From assembly GCF_014698235.1 (NCBI RefSeq), contig NZ_JACJSP010000004.1, positions 124,001-188,000 of the forward strand: 64,000 bases of DNA, read 5' to 3'. Below are positions 20,244 through 29,794 of the stretch, piece after piece. This DNA comes from Limnothrix sp. FACHB-406. GTDB lineage: Bacteria; Cyanobacteriota; Cyanobacteriia; CACIAM-69d. The translations under genes and the position numbers were made by a program. Within the stretch, counting starts at the first letter, position 1; each line of letters begins with the position of its first letter. The notes under the pieces were generated by a model, which ran no database searches, had not been told where the DNA came from, and saw only the letters and a list, made by a program, of their open reading frames with translations.

Positions 20244-20972
20244 ATGGTCTGTGATGCTGCTACTGAAACCAATGGGGAAAGTGCCGGGCCGATCGCCCCC
20301 TGTTGGCAACTGAATTTGCAAACCACAGCTTACGAAGTGGCTTGGGGTTGGCAGCGCCAGTGGCAGGCTGATCGAATCGCGGATCCGACACTGCCCGATG
20401 GGTTAATGCTGTTGGAACATCCGCCGGTTTATACCCTGGGGCGTGGGGCCGATCGCGCCTTTGTGCGGTTTGACCCCGCAACCCATCCCGTGCCGTTAGT
20501 GCCCATTGAGCGCGGGGGTGAGGTGACCCACCATTGCCCTGGGCAGTTGGTCGGCTATCCAATTTTGAATTTGCGCCGCCACCAACCGGATCTCCATTGG
20601 TATCTGCGCCAGTTGGAAGAGGTGTTGATTCGGGCGATCGGGACTTGGGGCTTGGGTGCGGAACGGCTGCCGGGCCTGACGGGGGTGTGGCTAGAGGGGT
20701 GCAAGGTGGCGGCGATCGGGATTCAGGTCAGCCGTTGGGTGACCATGCACGGCTTTGCTCTGAATGTGGATTGTGAGCTAGCGGGCTTTCGGGAAATTGT
20801 GCCCTGTGGAATTGCCGATCGCCCCGTGGGCCGCTTGGCGGATTTTGTGCCTGGATTGACGGTGGCCCAGGCGCGATCGGTGGTGGCAGAACAGTTTGCG
20901 GCGGTGTTTGGCCTGCGCTTGGAACCCTGCCCCCCAAACCACCGACCGGCGGGCGCATTGATGTTGCCCTAG
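20244..20972 (+). CDS. lipB: Octanoyl-[acyl carrier protein]:protein octanoyltransferase
   Basis: A 242-residue enzyme that transfers octanoyl from ACP to lipoyl domains, the first step of protein lipoylation. Motifs seen: [19 protein letters not shown], and [30 protein letters not shown] with the catalytic Lys, and EIVPCGI with the catalytic Cys. Gly/His-rich substrate loop is intact, so the enzyme should be active. Stop overlaps the hypB stop by four bases (convergent). The partner lipA is at 54.5 kb in this window, so both steps of lipoate synthesis are encoded but not together. A variable acidic N-terminal 20 residues precede the conserved core. Confidence 0.94.
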
Positions 20973-21988
20973 GGAGCCAAATCGGCGGTGGCCACAGGAC
21001 AGGCTCGATCGCGTTGAGCCAAAAGCCAGTCGTACCAGTCGGCCAACCCTTCGCCGGTCAGAGACGAGAGGGGCAAAATTCGCGCCTTGGGGTTCACCTG
21101 CTTCACGGCGGCGATCGCCCGGTCTAGGTCAAAGGGCAAGTAGGGCAGCAAATCGATTTTGCTCAGCAGCACCAAATCGCAGGCCCGAAACAAGTGTGGG
21201 TATTTCAGGGGTTTGTCTTCACCCTCAGTGACCGAAAAAATCCCGACCCGGGACGCTTCTCCCAAGTCAAACAGCGCAGGACAAACCAGGTTGCCCACAT
21301 TCTCGATCGCCAAAATGCTGCCCGGTGGCGGTTGCAGTTGCTGGCAGCCTCCTTGCACCATGGCCGCGTCCAAGTGGCAACCCGTGCCCGTGTTGACCTG
21401 AACCACGGGGCAACCGGTGGCCCGCACCCGCTCCGCATCATTCAAGGTGGCCTGATCCCCCTCAATGACGGCGAAGGAGACTCGATCGGCCAAATCCGTC
21501 AGGGTTTTCACCAGCAGCGTCGTTTTGCCGGCCCCGGGCCCGCTCATCAGGTTCAGGGCCCAAATGCCCTGGGTTTGGAACCATTGGCGGTTGGCGGCGG
21601 CCAGTTGGTTGTTTTTGTCTAGCAGCCGCGCTTCGAGGTGCAGGGTTTGGGTGACCGGATCCGTTGCCGTCAGAGAGGGGCGATCGGCTAGGTGATGATC
21701 CAAACCGGCCTGGGGATGGTCGTGATGGTGAGGATGGGAATGATGGTGATGAGCAGGGCTGGGGCTGGGGCTGGGTGCTGCGGGCCCGTGGCGATGCACC
21801 ACCACTGAACCATCGGGATGTTGGTGACTGTGCCAATCGGAGCCGATCGGGGAGTGGCCCAAAGCGGGATCGATCGCCTCGGATTGGGTCAGCTTATTTT
21901 GGGACAGGTTACTTTGGGGCCGCTCACTGTGGGATAGGTTGGTGATCGTGACCGATGCCCCCTCATCACAACCGCAGGTTACGCACAT
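20969..21988 (-). CDS. hypB: Hydrogenase nickel incorporation GTPase HypB
   Basis: A 339-residue GTPase that, with HypA, delivers Ni to [NiFe] hydrogenase. N-terminal MCVTCGC is the CXXCGC high-affinity metal site (C2, C5, C7). A His-rich stretch (about residues 75-105, with [10 protein letters not shown]) is a nickel store. The GTPase core has P-loop [12 protein letters not shown], the switch region [24 protein letters not shown] with metal-binding Cys/His, [16 protein letters not shown], and KIDLL (guanine specificity). ATG 21988 has GGAGAT upstream and overlaps the hypA end by ten bases, implying coupling. Last gene of the hypF-C-D-E-A-B unit. N-terminal extension between Cys motif and core is longer than in E. 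coli. Confidence 0.95.
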
Positions 21989-22320
21989 GGGATGATCTCC
22001 AAGGTTTTTAAAATTAAGTCTTGCCCCGCCTCGATCGCCCAATCCAAGCTGTTGCAATGGGGGCAAATTCCCACCACATCATCCAGGGGGAAATCTCGGC
22101 CGCAATGGTGGCAGCGGGCCCGGCCAGGCACGATTGTGATGTCCAACTCCGCCCCCTCCAGGGCCGTGCCCATGGCGCAGGGGCCAAAACAAAAGGCGAT
22201 CGCCTCCGTGGAAATGCCCGACAGGGCCCCCACGGCCAAACCCAGTCGGCGGATGGGGGCCCCTTGGGCCTGGGCCAGCGCCAACCGCACCAGTTCCTGA
22301 GTAATGCCTAGTTCGTGCAT
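21979..22320 (-). CDS. hypA: Hydrogenase nickel chaperone HypA
   Basis: A 113-residue metallochaperone. MHELGITQ gives the invariant MHE nickel site (H2). The zinc ribbon has two CXXC pairs, CHHC and CPHC, spaced 24 residues apart. It works with HypB to insert Ni into the large subunit after Fe(CN)2CO. Overlaps hypB (21979-21988). Upstream, 155 bases separate it from hypE, and that spacer holds 24-bp tandem repeats. Confidence 0.95.
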   Translation of the reverse strand: MHELGITQELVRLALAQAQGAPIRRLGLAVGALSGISTEAIAFCFGPCAMGTALEGAELDITIVPGRARCHHCGRDFPLDDVVGICPHCNSLDWAIEAGQDLILKTLEIIPCA

Positions 22321-22475: not shown

Positions 22476-23591
22476 CTAGCAAATCCGAGGCAAGGGATCG
22501 CCCATCGGCCACTCAATAATTCGTTCAGAACCAAAGCGCGTTTGCAAAATCACCACTGGTGGATCCGCCTTGGTCACATGGCCCACCAAACAGGCCTCCC
22601 GCCCTTCCGGCAGCATTTGCATGGCCATCAGGGCCCGAGCTGCAAATTCCCCCGGAACCACCGCCACCAACAGACCTTCGTTGGCCATGTGCAAAGGATC
22701 GAGACCCAACACTTCGCAGGCGGCGGCCACGGGCGGCCGCACGGGCAACGCCGCCTCTTCGAGCACCATGCTGACGCGGCTGGTTTGGGCAAATTCATTT
22801 AGCACGGCCGCCACGCCGCCCCGAGTGGCATCGCGCATGGCCCGCACGGTGGGACAAGCTTCACAGAGGGCCGCCGCCAGATCATGCAGGGGCTGGCAAT
22901 CGCTGGTGATGTCCGCTTCGAGGGCCAAGTCTCCTCGGGCTAACAAAATAGCCGTGCCATGGTCGCCCATGGGGCCACTGAGCAGAATGGCATCACCCGG
23001 TTGCAGGTAGCGTGGCCCGGGCACTTGGTTCGATCGCGCCACGCCCACCCCAGCGGTATTGATATAAATTTGGTCACCTTTGCCCCGAGGTACAACCTTT
23101 GTGTCGCCGGCCACCACCTTGACGCGGGCCGTGTCGGCGGCCAGTTTCATGCTCTGGGCAATGCGGCGTAGCAGGGCGATCGGGGTGCCCTCTTCAATGA
23201 TGAACCCACAGGAGAGATAGAGCGGCTGGGCCCCGGTCACGGCCAAATCATTCACCGTGCCATTGATGGCCAGGCTGCCGATGTCGCCGCCGGGAAAAAA
23301 CAGCGGATCCACCACGAAGGAATCGGTGGTGAAGGCCAACCGATCGCCCCGGGCCATGAACAGGGCTAAGTCCAGCCGCGCACTGTCATCCAGCGCATTG
23401 AGGGCATCGCTGTGAAAGGTTTCTAGGAAAATGTCAGTGATCAGGTTATGGGTGGCCCGGCCGCCGCTGCCGTGGGCCAGGGTGATGTAGCCTTCGTCGC
23501 TCGATCGGGTGCGATGCTGGGGCTGTTGAAACTCGAGCACGTTAGATGGGGGGGTGGCGAGGGAATCGGACGGATGATTAGAAGAAGCCAT
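22476..23591 (-). CDS. hypE: Hydrogenase expression/formation protein HypE
   Basis: A 371-residue PurM/AIRS-like ATPase that dehydrates a carbamoylated C-terminal cysteine into thiocyanate, the cyanide donor for the active-site iron. The C-terminus ends in PRIC, the reactive Cys. Other signatures: YITLAHGSGGRATHNLI near the start, FTTDSFVVDPLFFPGGDIG, VVAGDTKVVPRGKGD, and MRDATRGGVAAVLNEFA. N-terminal about 30 residues are a polar extension. Lies 47 bp from hypD. All key residues are present. Confidence 0.95.
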   Translation of the reverse strand: MASSNHPSDSLATPPSNVLEFQQPQHRTRSSDEGYITLAHGSGGRATHNLITDIFLETFHSDALNALDDSARLDLALFMARGDRLAFTTDSFVVDPLFFPGGDIGSLAINGTVNDLAVTGAQPLYLSCGFIIEEGTPIALLRRIAQSMKLAADTARVKVVAGDTKVVPRGKGDQIYINTAGVGVARSNQVPGPRYLQPGDAILLSGPMGDHGTAILLARGDLALEADITSDCQPLHDLAAALCEACPTVRAMRDATRGGVAAVLNEFAQTSRVSMVLEEAALPVRPPVAAACEVLGLDPLHMANEGLLVAVVPGEFAARALMAMQMLPEGREACLVGHVTKADPPVVILQTRFGSERIIEWPMGDPLPRIC

Positions 23592-23638: not shown

Positions 23639-24817
23639 CTATCGGGCCAATTCTGATTGCAGCGGGGGGCGGGCGGACGCTTCGGCAAATCTGCGGGGTG
23701 CAGCCATGGGCGATCGGGGGCCCCCGTGACCGTATTTGTAATAGGCAGCGCAGGCCCCTTCGGAGGAAACCATGCAAGCGCCTAGGGGATGGTCAGGGGT
23801 GCAACCGCGCCCAAAGGCACTGCATTCCCAGGGTTTGAGCTTGCCCTGCAAAATGAGGCCGCATTGGCAAACGGGTGAATCCTCACTGGCTTGGCTGGGT
23901 AGGCAATAGCGCTGTTCTGCATCAAAGGCCGCAAAGGCCGGAGCGATCGCCAAACCCGATCGGGGCAAGGATCCCAAACCGCGCCACTCAAATTGCTCCC
24001 GCACCGTGAATACCTGGGCCAGGGCGGCCAGGGCTGGACTGTTGCCCTCGGGCTTCACCAGCCGGTGATATTGGTTTTCCACGGCACAGCGCCCTTCAAC
24101 CAACTGCAACAGCAACATCCAAATCGATTGGAGCAGGTCGATCGGTTCAAAGCCTCCCACCACCACCGGTTTCTGATAGCGATCGACCACCGCTTGATAG
24201 GGATCAGTGCCAATCACGGCGCTCACATGGCCGGGGCCAATGAACCCATCCAAACGCAAGCCGCTGGCCTGGAGCAGAAATTCCAGAGCCGGGACAACGA
24301 GCACATGGTTGCAGAAGACGCTGAAGTTGGCTTGCTGGGTGCGGGCCGCCGCCAGGATGGTCATGGCCACGGCGGGAGCGGTGGTTTCAAAGCCCAAGCC
24401 AAAAAAGACCACGGGCCGATCGGGATGGGTTTGGGCTAAGGTCAGCGCATCGAGGGGCGAATAGACCACGCGTACATCGGCTCCTCGGGCCTTGGCCTGC
24501 ATCAGGCTGCCCCGCGCGCCGGGCACTCGCAGGGCATCGCCAAAGGTGGCAAAGATCATGCCCGGTTGTTCTGCTAGGGCGATCGCATCGTCAATTCGGC
24601 CCCGAGGCATGATGCACACGGGACAGCCGGGCCCATGGATCAGCTCCACGGTTTCCGGCAGCAGGGCTTCGAGGCCATGTTTAAAGATGGTGTGGGTCTG
24701 GCCGCCGCAGACTTCCATCAGGGCCACGGGGCGATCGAGCCGTTGCGCTAAATGGGCAATTTCCCGCACCCACCCTGCCACCGACGCGGGATCACGAAAT
24801 TCCGTCACAAACTTCAT
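23639..24817 (-). CDS. hypD: Hydrogenase formation protein HypD
   Basis: A 392-residue iron-sulfur scaffold which, together with HypC, assembles the Fe(CN)2CO unit. Motifs: LMEVCGGQTHTIFKHG (redox Cys), IHGPGCPVCIMPRGRID (two Cys), FGLGFETTAPA, FIGPGHVSAVIG, and the C-terminal 4Fe-4S region with CQCGLILQGKLKPWEC and GACMVSSEGACAAYY. The start ATG 24817 has AGGAG seven bases upstream. The last about 30 residues (RSPMAAPRRFAEASARPP) are a basic/Pro extension beyond typical HypD. The spacer to hypC holds short tandem repeats. Confidence 0.95.
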   Translation of the reverse strand: MKFVTEFRDPASVAGWVREIAHLAQRLDRPVALMEVCGGQTHTIFKHGLEALLPETVELIHGPGCPVCIMPRGRIDDAIALAEQPGMIFATFGDALRVPGARGSLMQAKARGADVRVVYSPLDALTLAQTHPDRPVVFFGLGFETTAPAVAMTILAAARTQQANFSVFCNHVLVVPALEFLLQASGLRLDGFIGPGHVSAVIGTDPYQAVVDRYQKPVVVGGFEPIDLLQSIWMLLLQLVEGRCAVENQYHRLVKPEGNSPALAALAQVFTVREQFEWRGLGSLPRSGLAIAPAFAAFDAEQRYCLPSQASEDSPVCQCGLILQGKLKPWECSAFGRGCTPDHPLGACMVSSEGACAAYYKYGHGGPRSPMAAPRRFAEASARPPLQSELAR

Positions 24818-24984: not shown

Positions 24985-25230
24985 TCACGCGGGCGTTATC
25001 AGACGATCGATCCAAGTCAGGGTTTCCGTGGCTGCGGCCACATCTAACTCTTCCAATGCAAAACCCGCGTGAACCACCACCCAGCGCCCCACCCACTGCT
25101 CGATCGGGCGGTCGGGCGTGACCAAACAGGCCAAGCTGACCGATCGCCGAACACCGCTCAAATCAACCGTGGCTAGCTGTTGATCTCCACTGACAATGGC
25201 CACCACTTGGCCCGGAACCGCTAAACACAT
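24985..25230 (-). CDS. hypC: HypC/HybG-family hydrogenase assembly chaperone
   Basis: An 81-residue chaperone. The essential N-terminal MCLAVPGQV with Cys2 is exact. It binds HypD to build the iron cofactor and transfers it to the large-subunit precursor. ATG 25230 was chosen to place Cys2 at the N-terminus; the frame to 25245 would add five residues. Between hypF and hypD in transcription order. Confidence 0.93.
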   Translation of the reverse strand: MCLAVPGQVVAIVSGDQQLATVDLSGVRRSVSLACLVTPDRPIEQWVGRWVVVHAGFALEELDVAAATETLTWIDRLITPA

Positions 25231-25356
25231 CCTGAAACCTCTCAATAACTCCTAAGGGCTGGCGTTGAATAGCTTGTGATTTTGATGGCTTGTGATTTGA
25301 ATGGCTCGTGATTCCCGGTGATTCCCATTGGCGACCAGCACGGGATCACCGAGACC

Positions 25357-28300
25357 CTAAACATGGCCCAACTGGAGCCAAGCGGCGGCGATCGCCGTTT
25401 GCCCCAACGCCAAGCCCCCATCGTTTACGGGAACCTGTTGCGGCAACAGCAACGGATCATGCAGATTGCTGGCCATCAGGGCGGCTTCCAAACACTGCAA
25501 CAGCAGCCGATTTTGGAAGACTCCACCACCACAGGCGATCGCTCCAAAGTGCAATCCCTGCTGTTTCAAGGTTTGGGCCGCTTGCACCAAAGCCTGGGCC
25601 AAGCCGCGATGGAACCGCAGGGCCATCACCGCCTCGGGCAGCCCCAGGGCCCGATCCAAAATCAGGGCTTCCCAAAGGGCTTGGGGATGCAGCCACAGCA
25701 GCGATTCCGATCGCAGCTCGATCGGGTAGGCCTGCTGATCTTGATCCCAAGCTTGGCGGGCTAGGTTTTCGAGGGCGATCGCCGCTTGCCCTTCATAGCT
25801 CAAGCAGTCGGGCGCACAGCCTAAAAAGGCCGCCACCGCATCAAACAGCCGTCCGCAGGATGAAGACCAAGGGCTGTTGAAACCCGTTTGGGCCATGCCC
25901 GTCAGCAGATTCAGCGGCTTTTGAGCAAACCACTTTTCGGAGTCCACCCGATCGAGCAGGCCCGTGGCGTGGAACTGGGCGTATAGATTGCGCCAAGGCT
26001 CCTGAGCAGCGCGGTTGCCCCCCAGTAACCGTGCCGGCCACAGGGCCCCGACTCGGTGATATTGCTCGTAGGTTGTCCACAGCAGCTCGCCGCCCCAAAC
26101 CGTGCCATCGCTGCCCCAACCGAATCCATCCAGGGCAATGCCCAACACGGGCGGGCGATCGAATCCCCATTGGTTGTCGGCCAAGCAGGCGGCAATGTGG
26201 GCATGGTGGTGCTGAATGCGCAACAACGGCACTTCCAAGGCCTTGGCCAAGGATTCACCCACCTTCACGGCTTGGCCATCCGGGTGCAAGTCCACAGCGA
26301 TCGCGCTGGGGCGGTGGTCAAACAAGTTGCGCAAGTCCGCGATCGCGGTGCTGTAGGCCTGGAGGCAGGCGGGTGAGTCCAAATCTCCAAGGTGAGGCGA
26401 GAGGATCGCTTGTCCGTCCCGCGAGAGGCAAATGGTGTTTTTCAGATCGCTGCCCAGGGCCAAGATCGGCGGGCTGTTGGTGAGGCCCGGCGGCAGGTTA
26501 ATGGAACTGGGAGCGTAGCCGCGCGATCGGCGAATCACCTGCACTGAAGTGGGCAACACCCGCACCACCGAATCATCCACCCGATTCAGGATCGATCGGT
26601 TGTGGAGCAAAAAAGCATCGGCGATCGACTGCAACTGCAGATGGGCTTCGTGGTTGTCAATGCATTGGGGATTGCCGGCCCGGTTGCCGCTGGTCAGCAC
26701 AATGGGCCGATCCACCGCGCTCATCAGGAGATGGTGCAGGGGAGAGTAGGGCAACATCACCCCCGCCTCCGTCATGTCAGGAGCCACCGACGGGGCCAAA
26801 TAATGGGGATCGCGGATCGTGAGCAGCACGATCGGGGCAGCCCCCCCCAAGAGGAGCGATCGCTCGTGATCACTGACTACGCAAAACTGCCGCACGGACT
26901 CCAAATTGCGGGACATCACCGCCAAAGGCTTGTGGGGGCGATGTTTGCGGGCCCGCAGCCGTTGCACCACGGCTTCCTGGGTGGCATCGCAGGCTAAGTG
27001 GATGCCGCCCAAGCCTTTGATGGCCACGATCGCCCCCTGGCGAATGGCTTCTGCTGCTTGGGCGATCGCCTGCTCATCCTTCACAATCGGCCGTTGCTGG
27101 CTGGGTCGCTCAAACCAAATGCGCGGCCCGCATTCCGGGCAGGCCGTGGGCTGGGCATGGAAGCGGCGATCGCCCGGATTATCGTAATCGCGTTGGCAGT
27201 CGGGACAGAGCTGAAACCCGACCATGCTGGTGCGCACCCGATCGTAGGGCAGGGAGCGAATGACCGTCAGCCGCGGCCCGCAATGGGTGCAGTTCACGAA
27301 GGGGTAGTGATAGTACCGACTGTCGGGATCGTGCAAATCCCGCAGACAGGCGGCACAGGTAGCCGTGTCCGGCGCAATTTGGGTGCGCACCGGGCCCGAC
27401 TGGCTCTCCAAAATCCGGAAAGACAAGGGCGATCGCCCCAGGAGTTCCGCCGAGGACAAATCCAGGGCTTGGCTGCGATGGGAAACCGGCAAGGGAGCCG
27501 ATCGAGACACGATCGGGGTTGGGGGTTGCAGTGGCGTATATAACGCTGGCCCCGGATCCGCATCATCCACCACCACCGGCACGATCGGCCCGAGGGGAGT
27601 CGTGGGCGGTTCCGTCGGTTCCAAGGGCCGCAACCGATCGATGGCCGGCTCCAAGAGTTCCGCCAACTCCTCTGCCAAGGAGTTGGAAAGTTCTGGATCC
27701 AGGGGCTGATGTAAGTTTTGAGCTAAATCTTGGCCTAGACCGTGATCCAACCGATTGGCATCTAACTTGGGATCCGACGGGCCATGGTTCAAATCTTGAT
27801 CGCTGGGCCCCACCCGATCGCCCGATCGCCGATCTGAGATGCCAGGACGGACATCAGGACGGATGCCAGAACGCGGCCCCCAATCGCCCGATGGTTCGCT
27901 GGGAGCAGCCGTGGGTGAGCTATCAAACAACTGATCCAAACGCGATCGAGACAGGGAATCGCTGGCGGGGGCTGCGGCTCCGTTGCCATCAACGGCCGAG
28001 CGGGGATCATCCCGATCGCCTAAATCCCTCTGATCCGCACCGGAATGCCCATTCAACTCAGTCCGCACCGGATCGACCTGATCCAACGGCCCAGCGCTCT
28101 CGGATTCCGCGCCATGCTCAGGGTCGATCGGGGACGGCCGCTCACCTTCGGGGCCCCTGTCTAACCAGCGCGATCGGCCATGGTTGCCCGCTTCCCCTTG
28201 CCCCACGCTTGATCCTTCCCGAGGATCCATCGCCATCACTTCTCCGTAGGTTTTCCCAGCCTGTCGCTCGATCGTGCCGTCATCGGCAACCGCCACGGCC

Positions 28301-29028
28301 CTCCAAGGAACGGGCTGCGCGGTTTCCCTCGCCACCACCGACTCCTCCTCCAGTCCATGGGCATAGGTAGGGCGATGTTTTGGTCGCAAATGCAAAGGGC
28401 AGCGGGGGCCCTGGGGTTTGTCCCCGATCGATGGCCCTTGATGACTGTTTGGATGGCCATCGGCCTGGGCTGCCTGGCGATTTCGCTGAAGTTGCATCGC
28501 CGTTTGTTGCCCCAGGGCGATCGAATGTTCATCCCAAGTGAGATCGTCGGATCCAGACTCGAAGGTCGCTGTGAACCTGGATGGCCCGGTGGGCAAGTTT
28601 GTTAGCCGCTCTGTCGCGGATTCGGTTGCTGATTTTGCGGGTAGTTTCTCAGGTAATTGCTCAGGGGCCGCCAACTTGCCCAATGCACCAGATTCCGACG
28701 GAGAAACAGCGGGTAGGTTGCCACTCGGCAACGGCAGTCCTGGCTCCATCAATTCCGACAGGGCGATCGGGGTTCGGATCAGCGTATCAATGCGGGAAAG
28801 GGGCGGTTTTTCCTGATAAAGCCGTTGTAAAAAAACATCAATTTGATCCGGATATCCCGCAATCCGAATCACCACGCCAACTCCATCATTCGCCACCGAT
28901 CCCATCAGTCCACATTCGATCGCTAGTCGATAAACCGTGGGACGAAAGCCGACTCCTTGGACAACGCCAACGACCCGAATTTCTTCGGCTCTCATCGTCA
29001 ACGATTGCTCGTCTTGAGTGCTGGCCAT
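25357..29028 (-). CDS. hypF: Carbamoyltransferase HypF with a giant low-complexity insertion
   Basis: HypF makes the carbamoyl group later converted to cyanide by HypE. Family members are about 750-800 residues; this one is 1223 from ATG 29028 (GGGAGAA upstream; ATG 29061 lacks a site). Order: acylphosphatase VRVVGVVQGVGFRPTVY start (about 18-90) with catalytic Arg29 and Asn47; about 440 residues rich in D, G, P, R, S, Q (about 92-534); final acylphosphatase strand SFRILES; paired zinc fingers (CAAC, CTHC, CPDC, CPEC); YrdC-like domain; Kae1-like domain with HHHAH and LDGFGWGSDGTVWGGE. All catalytic parts are kept and the frame is open throughout. First gene of the hyp unit. Confidence 0.93.
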   Translation of the reverse strand: MASTQDEQSLTMRAEEIRVVGVVQGVGFRPTVYRLAIECGLMGSVANDGVGVVIRIAGYPDQIDVFLQRLYQEKPPLSRIDTLIRTPIALSELMEPGLPLPSGNLPAVSPSESGALGKLAAPEQLPEKLPAKSATESATERLTNLPTGPSRFTATFESGSDDLTWDEHSIALGQQTAMQLQRNRQAAQADGHPNSHQGPSIGDKPQGPRCPLHLRPKHRPTYAHGLEEESVVARETAQPVPWRAVAVADDGTIERQAGKTYGEVMAMDPREGSSVGQGEAGNHGRSRWLDRGPEGERPSPIDPEHGAESESAGPLDQVDPVRTELNGHSGADQRDLGDRDDPRSAVDGNGAAAPASDSLSRSRLDQLFDSSPTAAPSEPSGDWGPRSGIRPDVRPGISDRRSGDRVGPSDQDLNHGPSDPKLDANRLDHGLGQDLAQNLHQPLDPELSNSLAEELAELLEPAIDRLRPLEPTEPPTTPLGPIVPVVVDDADPGPALYTPLQPPTPIVSRSAPLPVSHRSQALDLSSAELLGRSPLSFRILESQSGPVRTQIAPDTATCAACLRDLHDPDSRYYHYPFVNCTHCGPRLTVIRSLPYDRVRTSMVGFQLCPDCQRDYDNPGDRRFHAQPTACPECGPRIWFERPSQQRPIVKDEQAIAQAAEAIRQGAIVAIKGLGGIHLACDATQEAVVQRLRARKHRPHKPLAVMSRNLESVRQFCVVSDHERSLLLGGAAPIVLLTIRDPHYLAPSVAPDMTEAGVMLPYSPLHHLLMSAVDRPIVLTSGNRAGNPQCIDNHEAHLQLQSIADAFLLHNRSILNRVDDSVVRVLPTSVQVIRRSRGYAPSSINLPPGLTNSPPILALGSDLKNTICLSRDGQAILSPHLGDLDSPACLQAYSTAIADLRNLFDHRPSAIAVDLHPDGQAVKVGESLAKALEVPLLRIQHHHAHIAACLADNQWGFDRPPVLGIALDGFGWGSDGTVWGGELLWTTYEQYHRVGALWPARLLGGNRAAQEPWRNLYAQFHATGLLDRVDSEKWFAQKPLNLLTGMAQTGFNSPWSSSCGRLFDAVAAFLGCAPDCLSYEGQAAIALENLARQAWDQDQQAYPIELRSESLLWLHPQALWEALILDRALGLPEAVMALRFHRGLAQALVQAAQTLKQQGLHFGAIACGGGVFQNRLLLQCLEAALMASNLHDPLLLPQQVPVNDGGLALGQTAIAAAWLQLGHV

Positions 29029-29794
29029 GGCATATTCTCCCAAAGGAGCGGCATCAAACATACAGGTTTACTTAGGTTGGTTTCCTTAGCAGGGACTAGG
29101 AACCAGGTTCAAAGGCTCAAAATTCCCTATGTCAGATGTAGCGCGTTTGCCATGAAAATAGAGGAATCTTTTTGTTTTTTTAGCTTTTACTATCAGCAAT
29201 CTTTAGAAACCTCTGTGTTTTTTAAAGATCATCAACAATGGTTCTTGAATCCGGATTCGATTAAAGGTTCAAATCCATACTCGAATCTCTTGGATCTTTA
29301 AGAAAGATTTAATGTTTGAATTATTTTCTAGAAGGGTCTTAAGTCTGATCTGGGTAGATTTTGAGTGTATTTTCAGTATATTTCAGATCCCCTGTCTATG
29401 TGTTGTAAAGATTACGTAGTATTTTTGCAAAAATGGTCGCAAAAATAACAAAGAAGTGTTTTATAAATGGTTCAAAAGAAACTTAAAGATGCTTTGGAGA
29501 TAATTTGAAAAATATTTAGAAACGATCTAAAAAATTCACTTCTTGAATCAATTTGAAGCGTAATGTATTAAAGAATAAAGTGAAAAAATCAGAAAACAGT
29601 CTGACCTGCTGCCTGCTAGGTTTTACGAGGAACTCAAAAAAATTTATACCTCGATCTGAACTTCGGCTTAGAAACGAAATTCAAACAAGTTTGTACTGTT
29701 ATCTAGATTTGGATGGCGGCAATTACTTTCAGCTCTCAGGGGATGTCTGAAAGGCCTAAACGGCTACCTTGCGGGTCTCACCAACTGACGAAGA

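Follow-up and report, generated by a model that had tools for sequence, protein, structure and literature searches.

Introduction

HypF is the carbamoyl:HypE ligase that starts the synthesis of the hydrogenase cyanide ligands, and its acylphosphatase domain is a much-used model for folding and aggregation. Disordered linkers that carry short binding motifs are known in other bacterial proteins. The cysteine of the C-terminal PRIC motif of HypE is the carrier of the cyanide precursor (PMC12130793; PMC12134894). HypE associates with HypF in a stable alpha2-beta2 assembly that is separate from HypCD (PMC12134894), and, according to a 2025 review, HypF forms no stable complex with HypCDE (PMC12134894). 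In an open-access literature search, no paper on HypF insertions or on the HypF of Limnothrix was found.

Here, the hypF locus of Limnothrix sp. FACHB-406 is described within a 64,000-nucleotide stretch of its genome (contig NZ_JACJSP010000004.1, positions 124,001 to 188,000), referred to as the window. An earlier note had reported a complete HypF with an in-frame insertion of about 440 residues in the acylphosphatase domain, and this report is borne out: the insertion comprises 442 residues, is free of stops, and is accompanied by all Pfam domains of HypF.

Results

The window encodes a complete HypF within a hyp operon

The hypF gene lies on the minus strand at 25357..29061 and encodes 1234 residues from the first ATG. 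The boundary given earlier, 29028, is a second ATG in the same frame (MASTQDE, 1223 residues); it is preceded by GGGAG at a distance of a few bases and is the likelier start, although the open frame itself runs to 29061. A Pfam search of this frame returned the full HypF domain set, all on the minus strand. The first part of the acylphosphatase domain (28750..28983, aa 27-104; Pfam match aa 27-96) contains VQGVGFRP and SVANDGVG unbroken, and the catalytic Asn is present. The domain is then split by the insertion (27424..28749, aa 105-546), which is predicted to be disordered, and is retained in the structural model described below. The last acylphosphatase strand, SFRILES (27403..27423, aa 547-553), is followed by two zf-HYPF fingers matched as two stretches (27112..27369, about aa 565-650), a YrdC-like domain (26524..27051, aa 671-846), and a Kae1-like carbamoyltransferase region (25399..26478, aa 862-1221) made up of HypF_C (aa 862-962) and HypF_C_2 (aa 974-1221). 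The HHHAH motif at aa 951-955, which matches the metal site of Kae1-like carbamoyltransferases, shows no departure, and only 4 of 159 near-invariant columns are altered in the whole protein. On the same strand lie hypC (24985..25245), hypD (23639..24817), hypE with its C-terminal PRIC motif (22476..23591), hypA (21979..22320), which is collinear in Limnothrix sp. CACIAM 69d (locus L031), and hypB with a His-rich segment (20969..22066). The window genome (G000) combines these hyp genes with a NiFe hydrogenase. Apart from its loop, the window HypF is a normal, complete HypF.

The insertion occupies a single loop of the acylphosphatase domain

Alignment to 40 other HypF proteins shows that the insertion interrupts the acylphosphatase loop that links the region of the RIDTL strand to the final strand. 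It ends immediately before SFRILES, as had been stated earlier; its start lies after RIDTLIRTPIALSEL, about 10 residues later than the PPLSRIDTL boundary first proposed. At the same site, 39 of the 40 other proteins have a loop of 11-13 residues. The remaining protein (L014, genome G010) has a 36-residue loop, and no further expansion was seen at this site. Among 160 cyanobacteria with a HypF match, open frames above 1200 aa occur only in three Limnothrix genomes. The 20 loci with the next longest frames were fetched and checked, and these were rejected as further cases: their loops have 11-17 residues, and the extra length comes from N-terminal extensions or run-on frames.

The insertion is rich in P, L, S, A, G, D, R, and E. 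The HIP1-type words noticed earlier are indeed present, with one full HIP1 word (GCGATCGC) and a density of the HIP1 core CGATCG of 10.6 per kb versus 6.2 in the window. A tandem-repeat origin was rejected, as repeats are only weak and short. In agreement with the earlier remark that no domain is obvious, no known domain was matched in Pfam up to E 10, and a PDB sequence search gave matches at chance level only. No copy of the insertion was found beyond HypF in its own genome and in the relatives searched. An RNA element or intron was rejected, as a search of Rfam to E 0.1 gave no match. An antisense frame on the plus strand (27519..28370, 283 aa) was likewise rejected as a gene: the longest antisense frames in the other two Limnothrix genomes are only 149 and 95 aa, and by this comparison the frame is open by chance, and in the window only.

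The insertion is shared by three Limnothrix genomes

An alignment of related HypF proteins, suggested earlier as a check on place and length, finds the insertion at the same site in all three Limnothrix genomes examined, with 442 residues in the window, 461 in CACIAM 69d (G001, the same contig as L031), and 488 in a third, more distant species (G002, locus L033). Of these only three insertion-bearing genomes, two are close (92% identity); the HypF cores of G000 and G002 are about 59% identical. In G004, a member of the same family but of another genus (L034), the AKR-hypF-hypC-hypD-hypE order is that of the window and the loop has 13 residues. Within the limits of the genomes sampled, this distribution places the origin of the insertion on the Limnothrix stem, after the split from the nearest family members among them. 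The earlier note had named a close relative with the same synteny and a normal HypF, combined with signs of an artefact, as evidence that would overturn its description; only half of this combination is found, in a different genus, and no artefact is seen.

Reading frame and substitutions point to a translated insertion under uneven constraint

The insertion frame is stop-free in all three species, whereas the other frames hold several to many stops, and the length of the insertion is always a multiple of three. No stop-free sequence was obtained among 5000 in-frame shuffles of the window insertion. Between the window and G001, the insertion has a dN/dS of 0.41 (p = 1.5e-6 against 1) and the core one of 0.05. 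From the absence of stops, the multiples of three, and this ratio, it is deduced that the insertion is translated. Constraint is distributed unevenly: dN/dS is 0.27 for aa 105-200, 0.84 for aa 201-270, 0.31 for aa 271-325 and 0.71 for aa 326-420 (few changes in both), 0.38 for aa 421-470, and 0.03 for aa 471-546. The values for aa 201-270 and 326-420 are not distinguishable from 1, and in aa 471-546 a single amino-acid-changing substitution stands against 12 silent ones (p = 3e-6). The earlier suggestion that the insertion might be neutral is thus apt for the two near-neutral segments, but not for aa 471-546 or for three islands conserved across the genus. When the window and G001 proteins are aligned, five gaps appear, all of them within the insertion; the core has none. 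Few silent changes are seen at window positions 27802-28251 (aa 271-420), where pS is 0.05-0.10 against about 0.15-0.2 elsewhere; recent exchange or constraint at the DNA level is possible.

Between the window and G002, synonymous sites are saturated (dS about 2). The two insertions are collinear, with a score of 145 against 111 for the best of 500 shuffles, and two ungapped segments stand out with scores of 75 and 63, reached by 0 and 4 of 1000 shuffles, respectively, although shuffles handle low-complexity sequence crudely. Judged by these alignments, the loop is inherited, has been kept for the age of the genus, and is partly conserved.

Conserved islands lie within a predicted disordered loop

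Three islands, each searched singly against G002, show a similarity that is reached by none of 500 shuffles. Island 1 (28366..28416, minus strand, aa 216-232; 10 of 17 identities) contains RCPLHLRP, a motif found once per Limnothrix genome and in HypF only; the other 387 genomes hold 3 matches, which is about the chance rate. Island 2 (27637..27696, minus strand, aa 456-475; 10 of 20 identities), SLAEELAELLEPAI, is predicted to be an amphipathic helix and has the highest hydrophobic moment in the window insertion. Island 3 (27439..27486, minus strand, aa 526-541; 7 of 16 identities), RSxxxDLSSxxxL, directly precedes the last acylphosphatase strand. A further possible helix (28474..28530, minus strand, aa 178-196), EHSIALGQQTAMQLQRNRQ, is weakly conserved, its score being reached by 11 of 500 shuffles. 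The islands account for only about 50 of the 442 residues and, RCPLHLRP itself excepted, their conservation of near 50-60% does not exceed the core average (about 59%). The insertion is no uniform filler: three genus-wide islands are separated by nearly neutral sequence.

The structure of aa 24-1222 was modeled with AlphaFold2 from 36 sequences. The core has pLDDT values mostly above 85. The insertion is mostly at 22-38, with two possible helices (aa 179-198 and 456-475) at about 48; this prediction supports the disorder envisaged earlier, with the caveat that the insertion is covered by three alignment rows only, which makes low pLDDT a weak proof of disorder. The model superposes on the full-length HypF structure 3VTH over 732 residues (rmsd of 2.0 Å, Z of 43.8). 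Because this alignment extends from the first to the last residue of 3VTH, the acylphosphatase domain is predicted to sit in its proper place with the loop hanging out. Among 369 sampled ORFs of the window genome, 7 have predicted disordered runs of 100 aa or more, and the HypF run is the second-longest. In view of these other long runs, the lineage may be generally prone to loop growth.

An orphan hypF-hypE pair retains the loop in a third species

In G002, a draft genome rated 99% complete, no match for the NiFe large subunit, HypC, or HypD was found in a search of the genome. The hypF and hypE genes are adjacent (L033:1093-6293) beside lipB, where the window has its whole hyp operon. A hyp-operon hypB is also missing from G002, and the best HypB match there is a second copy of the kind that G000 and G001 carry at other loci. 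This second HypB-like gene lies outside the hyp operon at G000:C8:143743-144408 and at L130 in G001, and is the closest relative of HypB in G002. Both frames of the pair are open, and the loop and islands are kept. As the HypE-HypF complex is stable apart from HypCD, the pair kept in G002 is that known complex.

Both proteins have lost motif residues expected of active enzymes. G002 HypF retains the acylphosphatase motif and zinc-finger cysteines, but both outer His residues of HHHAH are replaced (H951R and H955Q, window numbering), and 28 of the 159 near-invariant columns are altered versus 4 in the window. G002 HypE ends in LIDPSSH and lacks HGSGG and the C-terminal PRIC motif with its cysteine. 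In a neutral-decay simulation (without indels) that matched the near-invariant losses, about 11 stops were expected in hypF and hypE together, and each of 200 runs yielded at least one; G002 has none. An argument from G002 as an outlier in identity is weakened by the wide scatter of G000-G002 orthologue identities and by a G000/G001 stem branch that is also long in the tree; the argument for constraint thus rests on the open frames set against the near-invariant losses.

HypF-like genes also occur in a further genus. The proteins encoded at L036:6533-8674 (G003) and L037:5023-7158 (G005) have YrdC and Kae1-like domains, and lack the acylphosphatase domain and zinc fingers. In these two genomes, of which G005 is a draft rated 93% complete, no NiFe large subunit, HypC, or HypD was found, and no clear HypE. 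The gene is under purifying selection (dN/dS of 0.12, dS about 1.06); its product has no loop and forms a long, loosely placed branch in the tree. Separately, extra HypF-like genes matching the Kae1-like part only were observed at G007:C172, G031:C184, and G058:C1104, in genomes that also have a full or split HypF.

Discussion

The most likely reading of the loop is that of a disordered, flexible linker that presents short partner-binding motifs, a proposal that could equally well prove right or wrong. Such a linker would leave the fold and chemistry of HypF untouched. The RCPLHLRP island and the amphipathic helix would be the partner-binding segments, with a helix that may fold upon binding, and the stretches between islands would drift and freely gain or lose codons. 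As partner, HypE, another protein that meets the HypE-HypF complex, or a protein outside the Hyp system would fit better than HypC or HypD, since G002 has kept the loop but neither of the latter.

The main and serious rival to the linker, itself a tentative reading, is mostly neutral growth: in a length-tolerant surface loop, a low-complexity stretch would have expanded via slippage and HIP1-like words, and the islands would be leftovers of slow drift or reflect a need for solubility. Growth of this kind is consistent with the two segments whose dN/dS (0.84 and 0.71) cannot be told from 1, the confinement of all five gaps to the insertion, the enrichment of CGATCG, the 36-residue loop at the same site in another cyanobacterium (L014), and the long disordered runs in other proteins of the window genome. 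It accounts poorly for the single amino-acid-changing versus 12 silent changes in aa 471-546 (p = 3e-6), and for the survival of RCPLHLRP and the helix in G002 at a HypF core identity of only about 59%.

The facts from G002 and G003/G005 raise the possibility of a role independent of hydrogenase. That the loop serves such a job of HypE-HypF, G002 having lost its hydrogenase and HypC/HypD and kept a non-catalytic pair with the loop, is unlikely, though it deserves weight. The missing hydrogenase and maturation genes, the pair's position beside lipB with catalytic motifs lost and yet frames open against about 11 expected stops, and a complex that is stable without HypCD (PMC12134894) all argue for this job, as does the purifying selection on the G003/G005 gene where no other hyp genes were found. 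However, G002 stands for one draft genome only and has no close relative from which dN/dS could be estimated; the frames could still be open after a recent loss, provided that the active-site changes were rapid and small in number; and the G003/G005 protein is loopless and on a long, loosely placed branch. Slightly less likely still is the wider version, in which HypF-derived proteins of Limnothrix and its family have a hydrogenase-independent role, the loop is part of that role, and the two G002 proteins are pseudo-enzymes kept for it after hydrogenase loss.

The earlier note had also suggested that the loop might tether HypE, HypC, or HypD. A tether to HypC or HypD, which would reduce the distance between HypF and the HypCD scaffold, is very improbable: G000 and G001 do combine the loop with hypC, hypD, and the NiFe large subunit, but G002 keeps loop and islands with neither protein found, and HypF is reported to form no stable complex with HypCDE (PMC12134894). 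From this gene content, such a tether cannot be the whole story of the loop; a role on the side of HypE, which remains beside HypF in G002, would be compatible. Finally, an assembly error, intron, intein, or bypassed DNA can be dismissed, as no supporting point was found, all three Limnothrix assemblies carry the insertion, neither an Rfam match (to E 0.1) nor a Pfam domain such as an intein is present, the reading frame is intact at a dN/dS below 1, and in neither of the other two species does the 283-aa antisense ORF stay open.

A loop of 440-490 residues in the HypF acylphosphatase domain is a natural test of insertion tolerance in a small fold, and of whether disordered loops give old enzymes new partners. 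The orphan hypF-hypE pair of G002, where no hydrogenase was found, raises the question of Hyp roles beyond hydrogenase maturation.

Comparison with known systems

The window HypF shares its domain order, near-invariant residues, and hyp operon neighbours with known HypF proteins (full-length 3VTH, E. coli 3TSP, and the acylphosphatase domain 1GXT). What sets it apart from them is the loop that precedes the final acylphosphatase strand, longer by 442 residues; sampled relatives have 11-17 residues there, and one has 36. The HypF of G004 (L034:9331-12309) resembles it in gene order and in the presence of a hydrogenase, and differs in its 13-residue loop. It is instead extended at length at the N-terminus and carries a DPDPDP-rich stretch behind the YrdC domain, which shows that low-complexity sequence has grown elsewhere in HypF within the family. 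In its low complexity, drifting length, short conserved islands, and predicted amphipathic helix, the window loop is like the disordered linkers of other bacterial proteins; unlike these, which lie in tails or between domains, it is embedded in a small folded enzyme domain.
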